Shown: positions 6,987 to 23,534 of the stretch, piece after piece | Numbering within the stretch: position 1 is the first letter of the stretch | Layout of the letters: each line of letters starts with the position of its first letter | IMG/VR virus record: IMGVR_UViG_3300030108_005191 | Span: 1-29,405 of that record | DNA length: 29,405 nt | Source: a virus | Strand: one strand, 5' to 3' | Translations under genes and position numbers: made by a program | Notes under the pieces: generated by a model | What the model was told of the DNA's origin: nothing | The model's input: the letters and a program-made list of their open reading frames with translations, nothing else | The model's database searches: none

Positions 6987-8558
6987 ATGGTAATACTTGA
7001 CAAAACCCTGGAGGAGTTTGTAGAACTCTTCCAGGGCTCCAACACATATTTTGGTGTTTCCAAACCTACAGGAAAGAAAAACTCTAAAGGTAAGGCAGAA
7101 TACAAACATTGGTTAGAACCTCAACCAATGACATTAGACCATTGGAAACAACATTTAACAGGAGAATCATATTATGGAAGTGTCCCAATTAGAGATGATA
7201 ATACATGCAATTGGGGTGTCATCGATGTTGATCGTTATAATATACAGCATAAGGAAGTTATTAAAACGATACGACAAAGAGGATATCCATTAGTACCGTA
7301 TAGATCAAAATCAAATGGCTTACATTTGATAATACATGTTGATGGTGTTGTTCCAGCATCATCAATGCGTAAAAAATTAATAGAGATAGCATCAGACTTA
7401 GGTATAAATGATACCACCACAGATATTTTTCCTGCACAAGACGAAGTAGATTTAACACCAGACAATTGGGATGATAAAAGAAAAGGTAATTTTGTAAACT
7501 TACCTTATCAAAAAGCACACATGACAACTAGAGTTGCTATGGATAACGAAGGCAATTCAGTAAAGATTGAAGATTTGTACGAGTTTGTAAAACCTTACAG
7601 AGTAACACCAACAGAATTTAAAAAAATTAAAATATTTCAAGATGATGAAACAAAAGATTACCCACCTTGTGTAATAAATTTTATGAAAAACAAAATACAA
7701 AAGGGTGAAGGTAGAAATGATGCAATGTTTAATGTTGCAGTATTGGCTAAAAAAATTAATCCTGATCCTGTAATGTATGAAGAATGGACAAGAGAGATGA
7801 TGTCTAAAGTTTGCTCAGAAAAATTACACCCAAAAGAATTACAAAATATTTTTAAAGGTGTTGAAAATAAAGAATATGCATACAAATGTAAAACTTCTAT
7901 TGCAAGAATGCACTGCGTATCTAGTGAGTGCATTAAAAGAAAGTTTGGAATAGGTGCTAACGAAGCCTTACCTGAGGTAGGTAAACTACAAAAAGTAAAC
8001 TCATATCCTGAACCTTATTGGATTTTACCCATCCAAGGTAAATCAATAAGACTTTCAACAAAACAATTATATCAACAACAATTATTAGGAGAGCAACTTT
8101 TAAATTATGATATTGTTTGGAGACCCTTAAAACCAACAAAAAGAGATCCAGATCCATATAGAGATTGGCTTGAGGAACTTATGTCAAACAAACAAGATAT
8201 GGAAGGATTTGATTCTTTTGAAGAGGGACAAGATGTATTTAATTCAAGAATGTCTAGATTTTTGGAAGATGTTGAAGATACCACAGAATTCGACCAGATT
8301 GACTCTGGTAATATTTGGAGAGATGATACAGATATGAGATTTAAATTAGAAACATTTAGATCTTTTATGAAAAAAATGGGGTACAATTGGAATGAAAAAG
8401 AATGTACTAAATTTTTAGAACAAGGAGGTGCAAAGCCCAAGAAAAAGTTTCAAAATATAAGTAGTAGGCACTGGGTGGTGTCTCTGCCAAAACAATCAGA
8501 GCATAAAAACAAAGATGTCAAATTTACTAAAACAAAAGCTGCGTGGGAAGACAATTAA
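6987..8558 (+). CDS. Archaeo-eukaryotic-type (TOTE-like) primase
   Basis: A 523-residue protein whose first 200 residues carry the archaeo-eukaryotic primase pattern: IDVD with D80 and D82 (metal ligands), SKSNGLHL with H113 (nucleotide binding), DIFPAQ at 146-151 and GNFVNLPY at 167-174. This spacing matches primase domains of the TOTE conflict-system type. A helical region follows, with Cys residues (Cys-x16 or so, CVSSEC) that may form a small metal-binding domain. No helicase motifs are present, so unlike many primase-helicases this one must work with a separate helicase, probably the UvrD-like protein encoded next. There is no obvious Shine-Dalgarno; translation may be coupled to the SSB gene three bases upstream. 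The 3' end overlaps the helicase gene by 44 bases. Confidence 0.8.
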   Translation: MVILDKTLEEFVELFQGSNTYFGVSKPTGKKNSKGKAEYKHWLEPQPMTLDHWKQHLTGESYYGSVPIRDDNTCNWGVIDVDRYNIQHKEVIKTIRQRGYPLVPYRSKSNGLHLIIHVDGVVPASSMRKKLIEIASDLGINDTTTDIFPAQDEVDLTPDNWDDKRKGNFVNLPYQKAHMTTRVAMDNEGNSVKIEDLYEFVKPYRVTPTEFKKIKIFQDDETKDYPPCVINFMKNKIQKGEGRNDAMFNVAVLAKKINPDPVMYEEWTREMMSKVCSEKLHPKELQNIFKGVENKEYAYKCKTSIARMHCVSSECIKRKFGIGANEALPEVGKLQKVNSYPEPYWILPIQGKSIRLSTKQLYQQQLLGEQLLNYDIVWRPLKPTKRDPDPYRDWLEELMSNKQDMEGFDSFEEGQDVFNSRMSRFLEDVEDTTEFDQIDSGNIWRDDTDMRFKLETFRSFMKKMGYNWNEKECTKFLEQGGAKPKKKFQNISSRHWVVSLPKQSEHKNKDVKFTKTKAAWEDN

Positions 8559-10736: not shown

Positions 10737-10825
10737 CTTTTTTATATGGATTAGGAATGTTGTCGGTTGGAATACTTGCAATCGCAATAATATGTACAAT
10801 AGGATTTTACGTAATAAATAAATGA
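10733..10825 (+). CDS. Single-membrane-helix peptide (30 aa)
   Basis: A 30-residue peptide, MTFLYG followed by one hydrophobic helix with scattered Gly and Ala, ending VINK. It is linked by four-base ATGA overlaps to the lipoprotein-like frame upstream and to the DNA polymerase downstream, which suggests real translation by re-initiation. The function is unknown; it may tether a complex to the membrane or simply couple polymerase translation. Confidence 0.55.
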   Translation: MTFLYGLGMLSVGILAIAIICTIGFYVINK

Positions 10826-12696
10826 CACATCAATTAAATTTTATATATAATGATAGTGATTGGGTTTGCCCACAAGAATACCCGGATCTTTCACAAGCAA
10901 AAGAAATAGCAATAGATTTAGAAACTAAAGACCCTAATCTTAAAACAAAAGGATCTGGTTGGGCTACATTTGATGGAGCAATTGTAGGTTTTGCAGTAGC
11001 AGCATTAGGTCAACAATGGTATTTTCCCATTCAACATGATGCGGGTGGTAACATGGATCTTGGTATTACTACAGCTTGGATGCAAAATGTTTTAAAAACA
11101 CCAGCCGATAAAATATTTCACAATGCTTCATACGATGTTGGTTGGTTACTTATGAACGGTTTTGAGATCAGAGGTAAGATAATAGATACGATGATTGCAG
11201 CAGCTGTTGTAGATGAAAATAGATTTAGTTTTAGTTTAAATGCTTGTAGTAAAGATTGGTTGGGTGAAATAAAGAATGAGACATTCTTAAATGAAAAAGC
11301 GAAAGAATGGGGTATTGATCCTAAACAAGACTTATGGAAGTTACCTGCAGGTTATGTTGGTTTTTATGCTGAACAAGATGCAGGTTTAACTTTAAAACTT
11401 TGGCAGCATTTAAAAACAGAAATTAGTAAACAAAGTTTACATGATGTGTGGGACCTGGAGATGGATTTGTTGCCTATATTAATAGAAATGCGTAGGACAG
11501 GTATACGTGTTGACGAACAAAGGGCAGCAGATCTTAAAAAAGAATTTAAGAAAAAGGAGTCAATTGTTTTAGGTAAGATAAAAAAAGAAACTACATTAGA
11601 TGTTGATATTTGGGCAGCAAGGAGTGTTGCACAAATCTTTGATAGAATAGGTGTGGATTATCCACGGACACCGAAAACCGGAGAACCAAGCTTTACCCAA
11701 AACTGGTTAGTGAACTGTGATAACCCAATAGCGCAACTAATACGAGAAGCAAGAGAAATAAATAAATTCCATTCAACATTCATAGACTCCATACAAAGAT
11801 ACGTTCACAAAGGTAGAATCCACTCAGAAATAAATCAGTTAAGATCTGACCAGGGTGGTACTGTATCTGGACGTTTAAGTTATTCTAATCCAAATCTTCA
11901 ACAAATACCAGCAAGAAATAAAGAGTTCGGTAATAAGATAAGAAGTTTATTTTTACCTGAGGAAGGTAGACAATGGGGAAGTTTTGATTACTCACAACAA
12001 GAACCAAGACTGGTGGCTCACTATGCTGCGTCCGTAGATATTGACGGATCATTTACAGGTGCTGACGAGTTTATAAAAGCGTATGAAAGTGATGAAGCAG
12101 ACTTTCATCAAATTGTTGCTGATATGGCAGGTATATCTAGAACTAATGCTAAAACGATCAATTTGGGTCTTTTTTATGGTATGGGTAAAGCTAAACTAGC
12201 GAGAGAATTAGGTATATCAAAAGATGCTGCTGAAAATTTATTAAGTAAATATCATACTAGAGTGCCTTTTGTTAAAAGATTGGCTGAAGCTGTAACTAAT
12301 AGTGCCTCAAAATATGGCTTTATTCGCACGATAAGGGGCCGTAAATGCCGATTCAACATGTGGGAGCCTGCTACCTTCGGAATGAACAAAGCTATGCGAT
12401 ATGAGGAGGCTAAGGCCATTTATGGAAACAACATTAGAAGAGCCTTTACTTACAAGGCCCTGAATAGGTTAATTCAAGGATCTGCAGCAGATCAAACAAA
12501 ACAAGCTATGATAAATTGTTACAAGCAAGGGTTTAAACCTATGTTGCAAATTCATGATGAATTATGCTTTTCGATTAATGAGGAAAGTGATATAATAAAA
12601 ATTAAGGAGGTTATGGAAAGTGCTATCGAATATCTTAAAGTCCCATTCAAAACAGACGTTGCACTCGGAACAAGCTGGGGAAATGCCAAAGAATAA
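10822..12696 (+). CDS. polA: Family A DNA polymerase with 3'-5' exonuclease
   Basis: A 624-residue replicative polymerase. The proofreading domain has AIDLET with D32 and E34, HNASYD with D105, and YAEQD with Y182 and D186. The polymerase domain has the GRLSYSNPNLQQIP segment near 355, motif A FDYSQQEPR with D389, motif B with R440, K444 and Y452, and motif C HDE at 578-580. No 5' nuclease domain is present, as in T7-like enzymes. The residue matching E. coli Phe762 is Leu448, a variant linked in marine-virus surveys to slower or temperate-like life styles. It differs from the usual motif A (SQIELR) by QQEPR. The start overlaps the membrane peptide (ATGA); the end overlaps a zinc-ribbon gene by 14 bases. 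Confidence 0.95.
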   Translation: MTHQLNFIYNDSDWVCPQEYPDLSQAKEIAIDLETKDPNLKTKGSGWATFDGAIVGFAVAALGQQWYFPIQHDAGGNMDLGITTAWMQNVLKTPADKIFHNASYDVGWLLMNGFEIRGKIIDTMIAAAVVDENRFSFSLNACSKDWLGEIKNETFLNEKAKEWGIDPKQDLWKLPAGYVGFYAEQDAGLTLKLWQHLKTEISKQSLHDVWDLEMDLLPILIEMRRTGIRVDEQRAADLKKEFKKKESIVLGKIKKETTLDVDIWAARSVAQIFDRIGVDYPRTPKTGEPSFTQNWLVNCDNPIAQLIREAREINKFHSTFIDSIQRYVHKGRIHSEINQLRSDQGGTVSGRLSYSNPNLQQIPARNKEFGNKIRSLFLPEEGRQWGSFDYSQQEPRLVAHYAASVDIDGSFTGADEFIKAYESDEADFHQIVADMAGISRTNAKTINLGLFYGMGKAKLARELGISKDAAENLLSKYHTRVPFVKRLAEAVTNSASKYGFIRTIRGRKCRFNMWEPATFGMNKAMRYEEAKAIYGNNIRRAFTYKALNRLIQGSAADQTKQAMINCYKQGFKPMLQIHDELCFSINEESDIIKIKEVMESAIEYLKVPFKTDVALGTSWGNAKE

Positions 12697-12829
12697 TTGT
12701 CCAAGATGCGATGGCACCAGGTTAATACAAACCTGGCACGATATCGCTGAAACTCATAAAGTTACGACTGAGTGTCCTCTTTGTCTTCCTGACCTTGATC
12801 TTCAATCTCTTCGATCGTCTGGTCTTTGA
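12683..12829 (+). CDS. Small zinc-ribbon protein
   Basis: Start chosen at ATG 12683, just after GGGG, rather than an upstream in-frame ATG inside the polymerase. The 48-residue product has CPRC at residues 6-9 and ECPLC about 24 residues later, a zinc-ribbon pair, and then a short Leu/Ser tail. Such small zinc proteins commonly follow phage polymerase genes; no role is established. Its 3' half is antisense to the minus-strand 49-residue gene. Confidence 0.65.
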   Translation: MPKNNCPRCDGTRLIQTWHDIAETHKVTTECPLCLPDLDLQSLRSSGL

Positions 12830-13011: not shown

Positions 13012-14583
13012 CTAGATGCGACACTGAATGCTTTTATAGAATTTATTAGTTTTACAAAAATCATTAATTATTTTATCTAAATCATGATTATTTTTTTCAT
13101 AAAAATCTTTCATTGGTTTATATAAATAAAAGCTTTGTAATTCTTCTTTTGCTAGTTTTGGATTAAAAAGTTTCATTCCTATGGCTACCTGATACCATAG
13201 TGTATTACCTAAATGATAAAAATTATTACCTATGTCATTAATATAATCATTTTCTCTTGGCATTTTATAACTCCACATTGACATTAATCTTTTTAATCTT
13301 GTAGACCATCTTTTTGTATCACTTGCTTCTTTCCAAAATTCAGAATCTTTTCTTGGGGTTATGTAATGAAATACAATAAAATCTCTAATATTATCCCACA
13401 TCTGTGTCATTTCTAAATTATATTGTTCATGAAATAAATTACATTTGTAATTCAAACCTTTTTTAAAATAATATTCTAAAAAATGATTTATTTGCATAAT
13501 TGTGGCATGTATGGACGTGGCCTCTAACGGTTCTATAAATGCACTTGATAAACCAGTTGATAATACATTTTTAATCCAAAATTTTTCTAATCTACCTGTA
13601 CTAAAATTTATTTCTCTCTGTACTTTTATTTTTCTATTTTTTAATTTTTTACTTATCTCTTCATAAGCTCTTTCAAAGTCTGTGTGTTTACTGCTAAAAA
13701 CATAACCACATCCCATTCTTGTTTGTGTAGGTATTTCCCAACACCATCCATGTTTTTGAGCCCAGGCATGTGTATAATTTTTTATTTCTTCATTATCTTC
13801 TATTTGATAATTAAAATTTAAGGCACTATCTACAAGTAAATTATCTTTATAAGATATCCATTTATTTTCTTCTATATTTTTAATTAGTATTCTTGCAAAT
13901 CCTGTGCAATCTACAAATAAATCTCCCTCAATGTTTTGTCCTGATTTTGTTTTTAAATATTTTACAAAACCATTTTCATCTTGTTCAAATCCTATTACTT
14001 GATCATCAACGTATTTACATTTGTGTGTATTTAAAGCTTTTTTCTTAAGATATTGTCCTACTTTATATGTATCTAAATGATAAGCTACTGGAATTGCAGA
14101 ACCCTTTTTTTGCATTGTATAAATATTTTCACCATTATTAGTAAAATGTAATTTGTTTGAGGCCATCAATCTTGATTGTAAAGTTTTGTCATAATCTAAA
14201 CCCTCTGCAATATGATAAATTCTAAAGTCATCATAACTGATGTGAGGGTAGCCAAAAAAATTATTATAATTATCACCAATAGGAGAATAAAATGATTTGC
14301 CAACTGTATGCCAATCACTATGTTTAATTCCTAATTTAAATGTAGATTCAGTTTCTTTTAAAAATTCTTTTTCATGAACACCAGTTAAATTATTTTTAAG
14401 ATTTATTAAATCATTAAACCGTCCTGTTGTGCTTTCTCCAACTCCAATTATTGGAATTTCTGGTGTTGCCACTAAAATTATTTTTATGTCATTACTTGTT
14501 TTATTAATGAAGTTATGTGCAGTAGACCATCCTGCAGTTCCCCCACCCACTATAACAATTGTTTCAGTTTTATTTTGAGACAT
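13012..14583 (-). CDS. Flavin-dependent tryptophan halogenase
   Basis: A 523-residue FAD enzyme of the PrnA/RebH type, which uses reduced flavin, oxygen and halide to halogenate an aromatic substrate. Visible marks: dinucleotide-binding GGGTAG at 13-18, the GVGES loop at 47-51, TFKLG with K83 at the place of the catalytic Lys79 of PrnA, the WxWxIP signature WCWEIP at 280-285, and FIEPLEAT with E351/E354 in the Glu346 region. PrnA-like enzymes have Ser after the second Glu; here it is Ala. Length is typical. No flavin reductase is seen nearby, so host flavin would be used. Viral homologues exist in cyanophages (VirX1 of Syn10, an iodinase). No ribosome site is seen; it probably follows the two small genes from the promoter near 15.0 kb. 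Substrate is unknown. Confidence 0.93.
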   Translation of the reverse strand: MSQNKTETIVIVGGGTAGWSTAHNFINKTSNDIKIILVATPEIPIIGVGESTTGRFNDLINLKNNLTGVHEKEFLKETESTFKLGIKHSDWHTVGKSFYSPIGDNYNNFFGYPHISYDDFRIYHIAEGLDYDKTLQSRLMASNKLHFTNNGENIYTMQKKGSAIPVAYHLDTYKVGQYLKKKALNTHKCKYVDDQVIGFEQDENGFVKYLKTKSGQNIEGDLFVDCTGFARILIKNIEENKWISYKDNLLVDSALNFNYQIEDNEEIKNYTHAWAQKHGWCWEIPTQTRMGCGYVFSSKHTDFERAYEEISKKLKNRKIKVQREINFSTGRLEKFWIKNVLSTGLSSAFIEPLEATSIHATIMQINHFLEYYFKKGLNYKCNLFHEQYNLEMTQMWDNIRDFIVFHYITPRKDSEFWKEASDTKRWSTRLKRLMSMWSYKMPRENDYINDIGNNFYHLGNTLWYQVAIGMKLFNPKLAKEELQSFYLYKPMKDFYEKNNHDLDKIINDFCKTNKFYKSIQCRI

Positions 14584-14619
14584 AGATAGCGTGCAGAATA
14601 TGTGAAAAAAATTTAAATA

Positions 14620-14638
14620 CTAGTTTTTTATTAACTAG
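14620..14638 (-). terminator. Weak stem-loop upstream of the halogenase
   Basis: CTAGTT (14620-14625) and AACTAG (14633-14638) form a 6-bp stem with a 7-base loop. Read on the minus strand it is followed by a T-rich run at 14604-14617. It sits at the stop of the 62-aa gene and could partly terminate before the halogenase. The stem is weak. Confidence 0.3.
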
Positions 14639-14819
14639 CTATATCAAGAAGACCTTTTCTAGCGTCTTCAACACTTTGGTCATTAATTTTGACCTTTACA
14701 TCTTTTAGTTCAATGTCGATCCACTTCATGTCAGGAGTTACTCTGCCCTGAGACAACGCTTGCGTTGCCCATTTGGATTCCAGCTGAAGTTTTTTCGCCA
14801 CTAGTTCTTGTAGAGACAT
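14631..14819 (-). CDS. Small helical protein of unknown function
   Basis: Start set at ATG 14819 because AGGAGG lies nine bases upstream; the longer in-frame extension lacks this. The 62-residue product starts SLQELVAKKLQLE and ends ARKGLLDIAS, with a mixed charged middle. It overlaps the preceding gene by 89 bases in another frame. It lies between that gene and the halogenase, all on the minus strand, and is probably co-transcribed with both. No family recognised. Confidence 0.6.
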   Translation of the reverse strand: MSLQELVAKKLQLESKWATQALSQGRVTPDMKWIDIELKDVKVKINDQSVEDARKGLLDIAS

Positions 14820-15006
14820 TTCTATCAACCTCCTCAAATGTAATATAGACACGATCAGTTCCATAAAAACCCTCATCAATGCCTGTTATCTCTCCTGAAT
14901 TCACGCCATTTGAAAACGTTTCAAGAGCAGCTTTATCATCTGATGCTTCAAGCGTCTTATCAATATATATGCTTTTATATCTTGCTTGGATGCGATAAAG
15001 CTTCAT
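14731..15006 (-). CDS. Small alpha/beta protein heading the halogenase operon
   Basis: A 91-residue protein, MKLYRIQARYKSIYIDKTLEASDD, with a strand-helix-strand pattern in the first 60 residues and a Ser/Thr/Gly-rich tail that overlaps the next gene. The start sits five bases after a strong -10, so the message is predicted to be leaderless, and no Shine-Dalgarno is present. It heads the minus-strand unit that continues into the halogenase. No family recognised; a link to halogenation is by position only. Confidence 0.65.
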   Translation of the reverse strand: MKLYRIQARYKSIYIDKTLEASDDKAALETFSNGVNSGEITGIDEGFYGTDRVYITFEEVDRNVSTRTSGEKTSAGIQMGNASVVSGQSNS

Positions 15007-17830: not shown

Positions 17831-17933
17831 GTGTCCCTGCTGTCCCTATTGATCTATTAGTCAAGTATATCAAGGATAATAGTCTATTTTAGTGGTGTCC
17901 CTCTGGTGTCCCTCTGGTGTCCCTCAGGGACAC
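17831..17933 (+). repeat. GTGTCCCT repeats: three tandem 11-bp units plus outliers
   Basis: TGGTGTCCCTC is repeated exactly three times head to tail at 17893-17903, 17904-17914 and 17915-17925. The last copy runs into its own inverse, AGGGACAC (17926-17933), making a 17-base dyad. Two related copies lie upstream, GTGTCCCT at 17831-17838 and CTGTCCCT at 17840-17847. An 11-bp period is about one helical turn, as in iterons and stacked operators. Confidence 0.8.
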
Positions 17934-18981: not shown

Positions 18982-19433
18982 TGGCAAAAAATCCTGAAAG
19001 TTTGTTATGGAATAAAGTTAAAAAAGGACTGACTAAATGTTTTTTAACACGCATAGAATCTAGCACAATCAACGGAATACCAGATGTTCACGGAGTGTTA
19101 AACAGCAATATATTTTGGATAGAATTAAAATCAGATAAGATCAGTTTTCCGCCACTAAATAAGTGGCAAGTAGTTTGGATTAACAAGTACGTAAAAGCAG
19201 GTGGTGTAGTATTTATCCTGTACGAAAACTTGGGCGAAGCCCTCTCGAAGAGGTCGCTTAAACTGTACAGACCGGTATCCGTGTTTACAGATCCCCGTTC
19301 ACTGAATCCCGTTCGCTCGTTCTCGTTTCCCGTACAATGGCCACAGGTTCAGGATGCCATCATGGGGGAGCTCCAGCAGCGTCCCGTGCGAAGCTCTCGT
19401 TCTCGTTCTCGTTCTCGGTCAAAGTTTCGTTGA
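18981..19433 (+). CDS. VRR-NUC type PD-(D/E)XK nuclease with a repeat-derived tail
   Basis: A 150-residue protein. Residues 1-98 form the VRR-NUC fold: GIPDVHG with D35, the core WIELK with E48 and K50, Q63 in the following helix, and GGVVFILY. These enzymes cut branched DNA and may resolve junctions before packaging. From about residue 100 on, composition changes: the coding DNA becomes GC-rich and the protein ends in an Arg-Ser repeat (RSRSRSRS) made by the TCTCGT tandem repeat at 19395-19418. That suggests the original 3' end was replaced by island DNA. The stop codon lies inside the island. Confidence 0.8.
   Translation: MAKNPESLLWNKVKKGLTKCFLTRIESSTINGIPDVHGVLNSNIFWIELKSDKISFPPLNKWQVVWINKYVKAGGVVFILYENLGEALSKRSLKLYRPVSVFTDPRSLNPVRSFSFPVQWPQVQDAIMGELQQRPVRSSRSRSRSRSKFR
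19233..19254 (+). repeat. Two adjacent small hairpins at the left edge of the GC-rich island
   Basis: GGGC-GAA-GCCC (19233-19243) is followed by CCTCT-CGA-AGAGG (19242-19254). They lie inside the nuclease gene where composition shifts to GC-rich, so they may mark an insertion boundary. Confidence 0.4.
19395..19418 (+). repeat. TCTCGT tandem repeat (four 6-bp units)
   Basis: TCTCGT at 19395, 19401 and 19407, and TCTCGG at 19413. In the nuclease frame it encodes Arg-Ser pairs. Related CTCG clusters occur near 19316, 19485, 20088, 20235, 20968 and 21095. Confidence 0.85.
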
Positions 19434-19498
19434 CCACGGGCACTGGATCCCGAAGGCAGACCTGTGCTTCCCGCAGCGTCTTCCCTCGTTCTCGTGCT

Positions 19499-19542
19499 GG
19501 TGACCCAGTTTTTTTATCCTTTTTGTTAGTTACTGGGTCACC
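19499..19542 (+). terminator. Perfect 11-bp inverted repeat after the nuclease gene
   Basis: GGTGACCCAGT (19499-19509) and ACTGGGTCACC (19532-19542) with a 22-base loop that is T-rich. The T run is inside the loop and not after the stem, so it may be a terminator of unusual form or the end of a mobile module. Confidence 0.4.
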
Positions 19543-19653
19543 TGCAGGTGAAGCTGCTGACGAAAATCTCGTACAAAAGCTAGGAAATATAACCCGTAGC
19601 ACAGCTTACAGCATCTGGCTCCAGGCAGCTCCTGGAACAGCGTGAAAAAGTTC

Positions 19654-19682
19654 TTGACTTATCTCCCATCAGCTCTTATCTT
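19654..19682 (+). promoter_or_regulatory. Promoter of the island two-gene cassette
   Basis: A -35 TTGACT (19654-19659), a 17-base spacer and a -10 TATCTT (19677-19682). ATG 19710 follows with AAAGGAG in the leader. The 5-bp-loop hairpin TCCAGG/CCTGGA (19620-19636) lies just upstream and may insulate it. Confidence 0.6.
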
Positions 19683-19709
19683 AGGATCATGAACAACAAA
19701 GGAGAGCAC

Positions 19710-19904
19710 ATGTCGATATCAAAGAAACCCAAGTGGCGTTACAGAAAGAACAAAGACGGATTCATGGGAAGCGAAAACCGCATACTCGTGAAGGAGGACA
19801 AACCAGAAGCAGGCAAGACTTACGCACTAACAGGTGCCCGTGGCACCAAATGCATTGCCAACGGTAACAGCTGGTCGGAGTCTGAAGTGGAGGAAAAGAT
19901 ATGA
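19710..19904 (+). CDS. Small basic island protein, unknown function
   Basis: Start chosen at ATG 19710, five bases after AAAGGAG, rather than an upstream in-frame ATG at 19689. The 64-residue product has a basic N-terminus (KKPKWRYRKNKDG), a GKTYALTGARGTKC segment and an acidic end. Its GC content (28 of 60 bases in 19741-19800) is above that of neighbouring phage genes, which fits acquisition from another source. The stop overlaps the next start (ATGA). No family recognised. Confidence 0.6.
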   Translation: MSISKKPKWRYRKNKDGFMGSENRILVKEDKPEAGKTYALTGARGTKCIANGNSWSESEVEEKI

Positions 19905-20086
19905 TGGACGATAAAGATCTAGAAGAATTCCATTCAATTGGGAAGCACAAGCTTACCATTGCATGGGGACAAGAGCAGCAGGAGACAAAGACGTACACAT
20001 TCGATACCGCTGCAGAGAAGACTGCGTTCCTGAAAGGAGTTGAGGCCATGGATGGCTGGATGAAGTATGAGGTCCTTCATGAGTAA
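19901..20086 (+). CDS. Small acidic island protein, unknown function
   Basis: A 61-residue protein starting MMDDKDLEEF, then two strands (KLTIAWG, KTYTFDT) and a helix (AAEKTAFLKGVEAMDGWMKYE). It is coupled to the previous gene by an ATGA overlap, and both lie between the two GC-rich module copies. A basic and an acidic small protein, co-expressed and repeat-flanked, could be a two-part unit such as toxin-antitoxin or regulator pair; nothing in the sequence proves this. Confidence 0.6.
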   Translation: MMDDKDLEEFHSIGKHKLTIAWGQEQQETKTYTFDTAAEKTAFLKGVEAMDGWMKYEVLHE

Positions 20087-20110
20087 CATCTCGTACCTCT
20101 CGGTATCTCG

Positions 20111-20310
20111 GGCCACAGGTCTCGTAACCGGTGGCCACGGCACTGGCATCTGCAGCCCGAAGGAGGTTCTCCGGTGGTGAGTGTAATTGGTACTTTACTA
20201 GTGTTATGGATAATATTCCCAAGAGCTATTACGATACTGCTCGTGCTCGCGCTGCTGGCAGCGACCTCGCTCGTTTCTTGAGACAACTGGGTACACAGGT
20301 AACCAGCAGG
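20111..20310 (+). repeat. GC-rich module, copy B (right flank of the two-gene cassette)
   Basis: Holds in order GGCCACAGGT (20111-20120), CCACGGCACTGG (20135-20146), CCCGAAGG (20156-20163), CTCGTGCTCG (20242 region) and ACTGGGTACACAGGT (20286-20300), matching the order in copy A with large length differences between blocks. A set of CTCG clusters precedes it from 20088. Confidence 0.5.
20174..20281 (+). CDS. Hydrophobic two-helix peptide inside module B
   Basis: A 35-codon frame from GTG 20174 with AGGAGG (20161-20166) seven bases upstream. The product is hydrophobic throughout, with two potential membrane helices separated by FPRA near residue 15-18. The Leu-Val pairs are encoded by CTCGTG repeats. 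It could be a small holin, a membrane toxin or chance. Another frame from ATG 20206 to 20352 (48 aa, basic) covers the same DNA but has no ribosome site. Confidence 0.4.
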   Translation: MVSVIGTLLVLWIIFPRAITILLVLALLAATSLVS

Positions 20311-22055: not shown

Positions 22056-23534
22056 ATGAATTTAGATCATCTATCAGAAGAAGAATTAAAAGATATAATT
22101 TTAAAAAAGCAGTTAGAGTGGATCAAGTTATGCCAGGATAATTTTTTAATTTTTGCTGAAACTGTTTGGCAAGATTTTATATATCGTAAAACAAAGGACC
22201 CAAAAAGATACGGTCATCATCAAATAATAGCTGAAGAATTTCAAAAGATAGCTGCTAATGAGGAAAAAAGGCTCATTATTAATATGCCACCAAGACATAC
22301 TAAATCAGAATTTGCATCTTATTTATTTCCTGCTTGGATGATTGGTAGGAATCCAAAGATGAAAATAATGCAGGTATCACACAATGCTGAACTTGCTACA
22401 AGGTTCGGTAGTAAGGTTCGAAACTTAATGAACACCAAGGAGTATAAACAGATCTTTGGTAATGTTACACTACGAGAAGATAGTAAGGCAAAAGGACGTT
22501 GGGAGACCAATCATGGTGGGGAATATTTTGCAGCGGGTGTTGGCGGTTCTATCACAGGACGAGGGGCGGACTTACTTATTATTGATGACCCACATACAGA
22601 ACAAGACTCAATGTCTGATTCTGCTATGGACAGAGCATACGAATGGTATTCATCAGGACCCAGACAACGTTTACAACCAGGCGGAAGAATTTGTGTTGTA
22701 ATGACAAGATGGGCAACTGATGATTTAACAGGAAGGCTCATCAAGGCACAATCTGAACCTAAAGCAGACAAATGGAAAGTTATTGAGTTTCCTGCAATAC
22801 TTCCTAACGATCAACCAGTATGGCCAGAGTATTGGTCAAAAGAAGATTTAGAAGCTGTCAAAGCTTCGGTGTCCATTAAAAATTGGAATGCACAATACAT
22901 GCAGGACCCAACTTCAGAGGAAGGGGCAATCATCAAACGTGAGTGGTGGCAAGATTGGGACAAAGAATATACACCTAAACTTTTACATGTAATACAAAGT
23001 TACGACACAGCATTTTCAAAAAAAGAATCTGCAGACTATTCAGCTATAACTACTTGGGGTATTTTTGAACCTGTGGAAGGTTATGAGAAATGCATAATAC
23101 TTTTAGATGCACACAAGGGAAGATATGACTTTCCAGATTTAAAAAATGTTGCGTTAGAGCAATATCATTACTGGGAACCGGAAACCGTAATCATTGAAGC
23201 TAAAGCATCTGGTCAACCATTAATACATGAATTAAGACGAGCAGGAATACCGGTCATCGACTACGTGCCTGCAAGAGGTAGAGATAAACACACTAGAATA
23301 AATAGTTGTGCTCCAGTCTTTGAGTCTGGCATGGTATATGCACCTTTAGATCAAAGTTATGCTCAAGAAGTTGTTGAAGAATGTGCAGCATTCCCTAATG
23401 GTCAATATGATGACTACGTTGATAGTATGACTCAAGCTGTGTTAAGATACAGACAAGGAGGATTTGTATCTACTTATTCTGATGATTGGGATGAACCTAA
23501 CATTAAAATAGAAAAAGATTATAAATATTATTAA
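22056..23534 (+). CDS. terL: Terminase large subunit
   Basis: A 492-residue packaging motor. The ATPase domain has the Walker A-like MPPRHTKS at 77-84, the adenine-side SHNAELA region near 108, and Walker B LLIIDD with D177-D178 followed by P. The C-terminal RNase H-like nuclease has SYDTAF with D317, VIIEAK with E381 and YDDYVDS with D453/D456. It is of the type whose C-terminal part carries the TIGR01630 family of phage terminases. It translocates DNA through the portal encoded 3 kb downstream. A short leader and no ribosome site are seen. The stop overlaps the next ATG (TAATG). Confidence 0.93.
   Translation: MNLDHLSEEELKDIILKKQLEWIKLCQDNFLIFAETVWQDFIYRKTKDPKRYGHHQIIAEEFQKIAANEEKRLIINMPPRHTKSEFASYLFPAWMIGRNPKMKIMQVSHNAELATRFGSKVRNLMNTKEYKQIFGNVTLREDSKAKGRWETNHGGEYFAAGVGGSITGRGADLLIIDDPHTEQDSMSDSAMDRAYEWYSSGPRQRLQPGGRICVVMTRWATDDLTGRLIKAQSEPKADKWKVIEFPAILPNDQPVWPEYWSKEDLEAVKASVSIKNWNAQYMQDPTSEEGAIIKREWWQDWDKEYTPKLLHVIQSYDTAFSKKESADYSAITTWGIFEPVEGYEKCIILLDAHKGRYDFPDLKNVALEQYHYWEPETVIIEAKASGQPLIHELRRAGIPVIDYVPARGRDKHTRINSCAPVFESGMVYAPLDQSYAQEVVEECAAFPNGQYDDYVDSMTQAVLRYRQGGFVSTYSDDWDEPNIKIEKDYKYY

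Follow-up and report, generated by a model that had tools for sequence, protein, structure and literature searches.

A flavin-dependent halogenase gene in an exchange slot beside the DNA polymerase gene of a phage resembling HTVC023P

The DNA analyzed here, referred to as the window, is a single linear virus record from IMG/VR with a length of 29,405 bases, and we found that it carries a gene for a variant-A flavin-dependent halogenase (FDH) that sits in an exchange slot. The enzyme kind is known; what is new is its clade, in a phage type without prior listing, and its exchange-slot setting. The open reading frame (13012..14583, minus strand, 523 aa) begins with ATG and has no internal stop, and the gene is hence intact.

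The identity of the protein follows from its family HMM and its fold. Against the Pfam profile PF04820 (Trp_halogenase) it scored 347.6 bits (E=1.5e-103; cut-off 21), and it matched phrog_2928, labelled tryptophan halogenase, at 2.6e-103. Alignment with Thal and RebH placed the FAD dinucleotide motif GGGTAG at residues 13-18 (14530..14547) and the WxWxIP signature, here WCWEIP, at residues 280-285 (13729..13746), while Lys83 (14335..14337) occupies the aligned column of the catalytic Lys79 of RebH/Thal; EPLEAT aligned at residues 351-356 (13516..13533), where catalytic Glu354 is followed by Ala355 (all minus strand). Across 38 aligned homologues, Lys83, Glu351, Glu354, and Trp280 are invariant, and GGGTAG, Lys83, WCWEIP, and EPLEAT as a set are invariant or nearly so. 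The preliminary description had listed the FAD motif, the catalytic Lys, and WxWxIP as retained, and all three are indeed in place in the alignment with Thal and RebH, with no loss of FAD or catalytic residues. Its prediction of a phage-encoded FDH with a complete catalytic set that is probably active agrees with the conservation of Lys83, Glu354, and the motifs. The gene is under purifying selection as judged by a dN/dS of 0.12-0.20 against its orthologues (NG86). An AF2 model built from the 38-sequence alignment (pLDDT 88.9, pTM 0.89) gave PyrH, Thal, RebH, and other Trp halogenases as best PDB matches (TM 0.8-0.9, 24-28% identity), so that the structure comparison proposed earlier ranks tryptophan/indole halogenases at the top. 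Ala after the second Glu of EPLE had also been singled out; its position (Ala355) was correct, but it does not stand as a special trait, since it is common. EPLEAT occurs in 30/30 members of the viral FDH clade of the window, in 9/23 other viral FDHs (EPLEATS in eight, EPLEATG in one, with EPLEAS in five more), and in 10/49 bacterial FDHs. A private Ser-to-Ala change is ruled out by this clade-wide presence and by its frequency elsewhere in the family.

To judge from its genes, the phage is of the HTVC023P type, kin to the Pelagibacter podoviruses. The terminase large subunit (22056..23534, plus strand), portal, and DNA polymerase A (polA; 10822..12696, plus strand) are 70.6%, 59%, and 60% identical to those of Pelagibacter phage HTVC023P and collinear with them. 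Since HTVC023P is the nearest relative in these three genes and in gene order, the host is probably a SAR11-like bacterium. The HTVC023P genome gave no halogenase match to PF04820, and the text of a published survey covering 80 genomes of the HTVC023P type makes no reference to a halogenase (PMC9599517). Of 80 HTVC023P-type loci that we fetched by polA, 45 have at least 2.2 kb downstream, and none of these carries an FDH at the polA side; among T4-like gp47 loci whose upstream DNA was long enough, 6/76 carry one. These counts indicate that the FDH is a rare accessory in both HTVC023P-type and T4-like phages. Over marine phages as a whole, the earlier statement that halogenases are known in a few understates their number: the phage collection contains 65 matching records, one lineage search alone returned 50 IMG/VR loci with an FDH, and FDHs have been reported in 20/153 cyanophages (PMC10452541).

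The exchange slot became apparent upon comparison with sister contigs. Six of these (L125, L126, L129, L135, L138, and L140) align with the window on both sides of the slot, with a nucleotide identity of 72-89%; the match runs from the polA side, the left anchor, up to ~13035-13044 and resumes at ~14571-14670, and the middle differs. The slot is empty (<150 bases) in 31 of the 57 loci with both anchors and holds other DNA in the rest. Both edges are constant. The 3' edge (13012..13038), which reads AAAAGCATTCAGTGTCGCATCTAG on the minus strand and encodes the FDH C-terminus SIQCRI-stop, recurs where the slot is empty (L135, L138) and after cassettes of other kinds (L125, L126, L140, L155, L187, L194), and it or a close variant follows most cassettes. 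The 5' leader (14584..14630), common also to the non-FDH cassettes of L126, L133, L140, and L155, ends in CTATCT directly before ATGTCT; this leader/start junction is found at the FDHs of the window, L002, and L004 and also in L126, L133, and L155, and with changes in L140. SIQCRI thus comes from constant slot sequence and T4-like FDHs end otherwise, which implies that the slot existed first and that an FDH frame was then fused into it, probably via the short common stretch AAAAGC. The slot edges in the window showed no significant direct or inverted repeat (P=0.23 and 0.61), and site-specific recombination was set aside for want of such a repeat; exchange via the homologous flanks is enough to account for the slot.

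The other cassettes of the slot, usually one gene and two at most, lie on the FDH strand; loci filled with plus-strand or polA-proximal genes were not counted among them. By Pfam, they include 2OG-FeII_Oxy_5 proteins (PF13759; L126, L155), DUF6445/2OG proteins (L128, L129), a JmjC_2/Cupin_2 protein (L194), and NodU-type carbamoyltransferases (Carbam_trans; L187, L200), and by PHROG, members of phrog_274 (L125, L140, L200). When the partners were clustered by sequence, 7/8 clusters were of the 2OG/cupin type, with P ~4e-9 at the background of ~4/86 genes in HTVC023P and P ~7e-7 even at a background of 1/10, the clusters being not fully independent. phrog_274 is labelled 'DNA endonuclease V'. 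However, HxD, a further His, and an Arg (H96, D98, H140, R151) are retained throughout its 22 aligned members, and an AF2 model of the L140 protein (L140:6143-6628, minus strand; 161 aa; pLDDT 92.7) has Dictyostelium PHD, human PHD2/EGLN1, and Pseudomonas P4H as top matches (TM 0.5-0.7). Judged by modelled fold and signature, the L140 protein is a predicted 2OG-Fe(II) oxygenase; the invariant HxD..H..R and PHD2-like fold rule out a DNA repair role as endonuclease V for these partners, and the PHROG 274 label, which also covers L183:6936-7463, is likely a misannotation. Genes labelled in the same way adjoin FDHs in the cyanophage records S-H38 and Sf-CH3.

Immediately upstream of the slot on the same strand are a 62-aa ORF (14631..14819), 74-78% identical in L002-L004 and also found beside empty slots, and a 91-aa homologue of HTVC023P gp09 (14731..15006; 42%), likewise conserved in L002-L004. 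With these two small ORFs in front, a minus-strand unit of its own for the FDH, as had been suggested, is not supported, and the strong promoter placed before it did not emerge from a scan that gave 15 sites against 16.7 in shuffled sequences; the same scan found no terminator. The best site by eye, TTGCAT-18-TATAAT at 15041-15012, has a poor -35 element and precedes the 91-aa ORF, and we did not retain it. Elsewhere in the window we observed genes for an archaeo-eukaryotic (AEP-TOTE-type) primase (6987-8558) and then a UvrD-like helicase, a small zinc-ribbon-like ORF overlapping the polA end (12620-12829), at whose position L159 and L168 carry a different gene, methyltransferase-like by eye, the 11-mer TGGTGTCCCTC in three exact copies at 17893-17925, and a region at 19100-20300 with a GC content of 47-53%, versus ~33% for the genome; the small ORFs of this region have no Pfam match, and it gave no Rfam hit. 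No Rfam family was found anywhere in the window.

A tree of 105 FDHs, which contains no non-halogenating flavin monooxygenase, placed the window FDH inside PF04820 and in a purely viral clade of 30 members (SH-aLRT 100). Within this clade, the window, L002, and L004 group together (100) as sister to L006 (99), and the branch is nested among contigs that carry T4-like gp47, gp46, and UvsW genes. VirX1, which we located at L016:5998-7590 of Syn10 and confirmed by its match to PDB 6QGM, lies in a clade of eight (support 100) with the P-RSM6, P-TIM40, and Sf-CH3 genes; Thal, RebH, and the Trp-5-halogenases form a third group apart from both. As viral FDHs fall in separate clades of this tree, phage FDHs arose several times. 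The simplest reading of the phylogeny would be a transfer of the FDH from a T4-like pelagimyovirus to an HTVC023P-type phage, parallel to the curli (T8SS) gene set described as moved from a myovirus to a podovirus (PMC9599517). Between the window and L002, the FDH genes are 90% identical at the nucleotide level (dS 0.42) and the polA genes 80% (dS 1.04), a difference that may mean that the FDH was exchanged through recombination at a later time. The closest bacterial FDH that we found is 37% identical (L100, a 1.6-Mb alphaproteobacterial genome) and adjoins a peptide ABC transporter, which was read from ORF sequences and not by HMM search. At L119:7064-8590 (G427), in a small AT-rich alphaproteobacterial genome, the closest bacterial FDH overlaps an apparent oligopeptide ABC transporter ATPase gene. 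The FDH of a human fecal phage scaffold (L070, MT835646) groups with proteobacterial FDHs, either as a separate acquisition or since the contig is bacterial.

We also found FDHs in the company of 2OG-domain genes elsewhere among phages. Nine complete genomes contain 11 FDH blocks, of which 8 have a 2OG-domain gene at a distance of at most 2.5 kb (2.9 expected, P=0.0008), and 21 2OG-domain genes lie within 5 kb of FDH blocks (8.3 expected, P=0.005); both P values are optimistic, given the relatedness of the nine phages and the clustering of 2OG genes. One to several FDHs are found inside runs of 2OG-type genes in L014, L040, L042, L044, and L054 (labelled by Pfam matches for L014 and by PF13759/PF13640 matches for the others), and the runs in the first four adjoin glycine-rich or other tail-like genes. 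Syn10, Sf-CH3, P-RSM6, and P-TIM40 carry tandem or single FDHs in an apparent tail region. PhyH (PF05721), used as a further neighbor marker, gave no match above the cut-off.

How phage halogenases contribute to infection has not been settled from the first cyanophage 'prnA' genes onwards, and we know of no in-host substrate or product for any phage FDH. We consider the chances about even that a working FDH here serves as a one-gene tailoring module that would halogenate an aromatic ring on a bulky substrate, plausibly a polypeptide. By the chemistry of the family, FADH2 from the host and O2 would yield a flavin hydroperoxide that oxidizes a halide, likely chloride and bromide given their abundance in marine cells, to HOX; HOX would then reach Lys83, and an electron-rich aromatic ring would be halogenated with the help of Glu354. 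Free tryptophan is an unlikely substrate; the ring would be of the indole or phenol type and belong to a larger molecule, for which a polypeptide of the phage or host is the most plausible candidate, and the slot partners, as single-step modifiers, may share a target class with the FDH. We favor direct modification of a macromolecule over a pathway because the FDH is a single gene, its replacements are single-step modifiers, and several of these have a protein-hydroxylase fold. Several points count against this reading. In the T4-like relatives, the FDH lies in the gp47-gp46 run of recombination genes and not by tail genes; swapping at one site can mean a common entry point and not a common target; and the peptide ABC transporter of the bacterial relative would fit a small imported substrate equally. 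No 2OG gene was found in the window, but its end comes before the tail module, and HTVC023P carries three in that module.

If the FDH instead catalyzed a single step in a pathway for a small molecule or glycan, the product could be a halogenated metabolite or a decorated surface polysaccharide that affects competitors or superinfecting phages. In favor of this, carbamoyltransferases usually act on sugars or small molecules. Likewise, a 10-gene cluster of FDH, 2OG oxygenases, cupins, and carbamoyltransferases in jumbo cyanophages, the same enzyme kinds as the slot partners, has been read as a pathway (PMC7824862). However, the FDH stands alone in the window and its orthologues, and the slot holds one or two genes, although the rest of the genome could hold more; profile searches found no other pathway genes beside the FDH within the 29-kb incomplete contig. 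We therefore regard a pathway as a serious but unlikely alternative.

It is less probable still that the enzyme acts on the host's free tryptophan or indole and turns it into a halogenated antimetabolite or signal, which is the older antibiotic-protection reading of 'prnA' and was offered as speculation for cyanophages (PMC2984593). The annotation as tryptophan halogenase and the first places of Trp halogenases in phmmer and Foldseek searches speak for it. On the other hand, the alignment with Thal and RebH shows that the window FDH is without the tryptophan-binding motifs Trp1, Trp2, and Trp4 (PMC8269204): the first two are replaced (STTGRF for ATVPNL and SPIGD for HPFGL), and Trp4 is absent; the halogenases without Trp4 that were examined in PMC8269204 halogenated indole and not tryptophan. 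As the FDH also falls outside the Thal/RebH/Trp-5-halogenase clade, we rejected its identity as a tryptophan halogenase. Lastly, the FDH could be a flavin oxidase or monooxygenase that no longer halogenates or that releases only free hypohalous acid. Ala355 in place of Ser beside the halide site would suit such a loss, but EPLEA is widespread in the family and Lys83, Glu354, Thr356, and WxWxIP are kept clade-wide, and we deem this highly improbable.

Extending the preferred reading of polypeptide modification, we tentatively suggest, as a somewhat doubtful possibility, that marine phages maintain a swappable 'protein-decoration' slot with a fixed leader and tail, in which a halogenase, prolyl-hydroxylase-like oxygenases, a JmjC/cupin hydroxylase, and a carbamoyltransferase alternate and alter phage or host proteins such as receptor-binding tail proteins. 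If true, viral halogenases would serve to modify proteins rather than to produce secondary metabolites. The natural swap partners name the enzymes able to replace the FDH, the closest being prolyl-hydroxylase-like, and the slot thereby replaces the question of the metabolite with the testable one of which protein or polymer is concerned. The clade also offers biocatalysis a new and distinct group of FDHs that lack the tryptophan-binding motifs, and it adds to the probable instances of genes passing between pelagimyoviruses and HTVC023P-type phages.

Among known systems, VirX1 of the T4-like cyanophage Syn10 (PDB 6QGM) is, like the window FDH, a phage variant-A enzyme with the family signature and catalytic Lys/Glu. 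However, the two are ~28% identical, VirX1 has EPLESTG where the window has EPLEATS, and VirX1 stands in tandem with a second FDH. The tree rules out a VirX1-like identity; VirX1, with its separate clade and EPLES motif and brought in for comparison by the preliminary description, is a poor guide to the window FDH, and its iodide preference is not transferable. Thal, RebH, and PyrH share fold (TM 0.8-0.9) and catalytic residues with the window FDH but belong to a different clade and have the Trp1, Trp2, and Trp4 motifs that it is missing. The 'PrnA' of Pelagibacter myophage HTVC008M shares EPLEAT and lies beside a phytanoyl-CoA-dioxygenase/2OG gene, yet it is 33% identical and of a different clade. 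Much closer are the FDHs of T4-like pelagimyoviruses (L005-L013, L020-L037), 60-77% identical with the same motifs; these lie between a conserved 182-aa ORF and gp47 and end in YYKSL or similar, whereas the window FDH lies at polA and ends in YKSIQCRI. While the ~10 genes of the jumbo-cyanophage cluster occur together (PMC7824862), the window-type slot holds one or two that alternate. The pelagiphages of PMC9599517 are of the same HTVC023P type as the window, and the polA-side exchange slot is described here.
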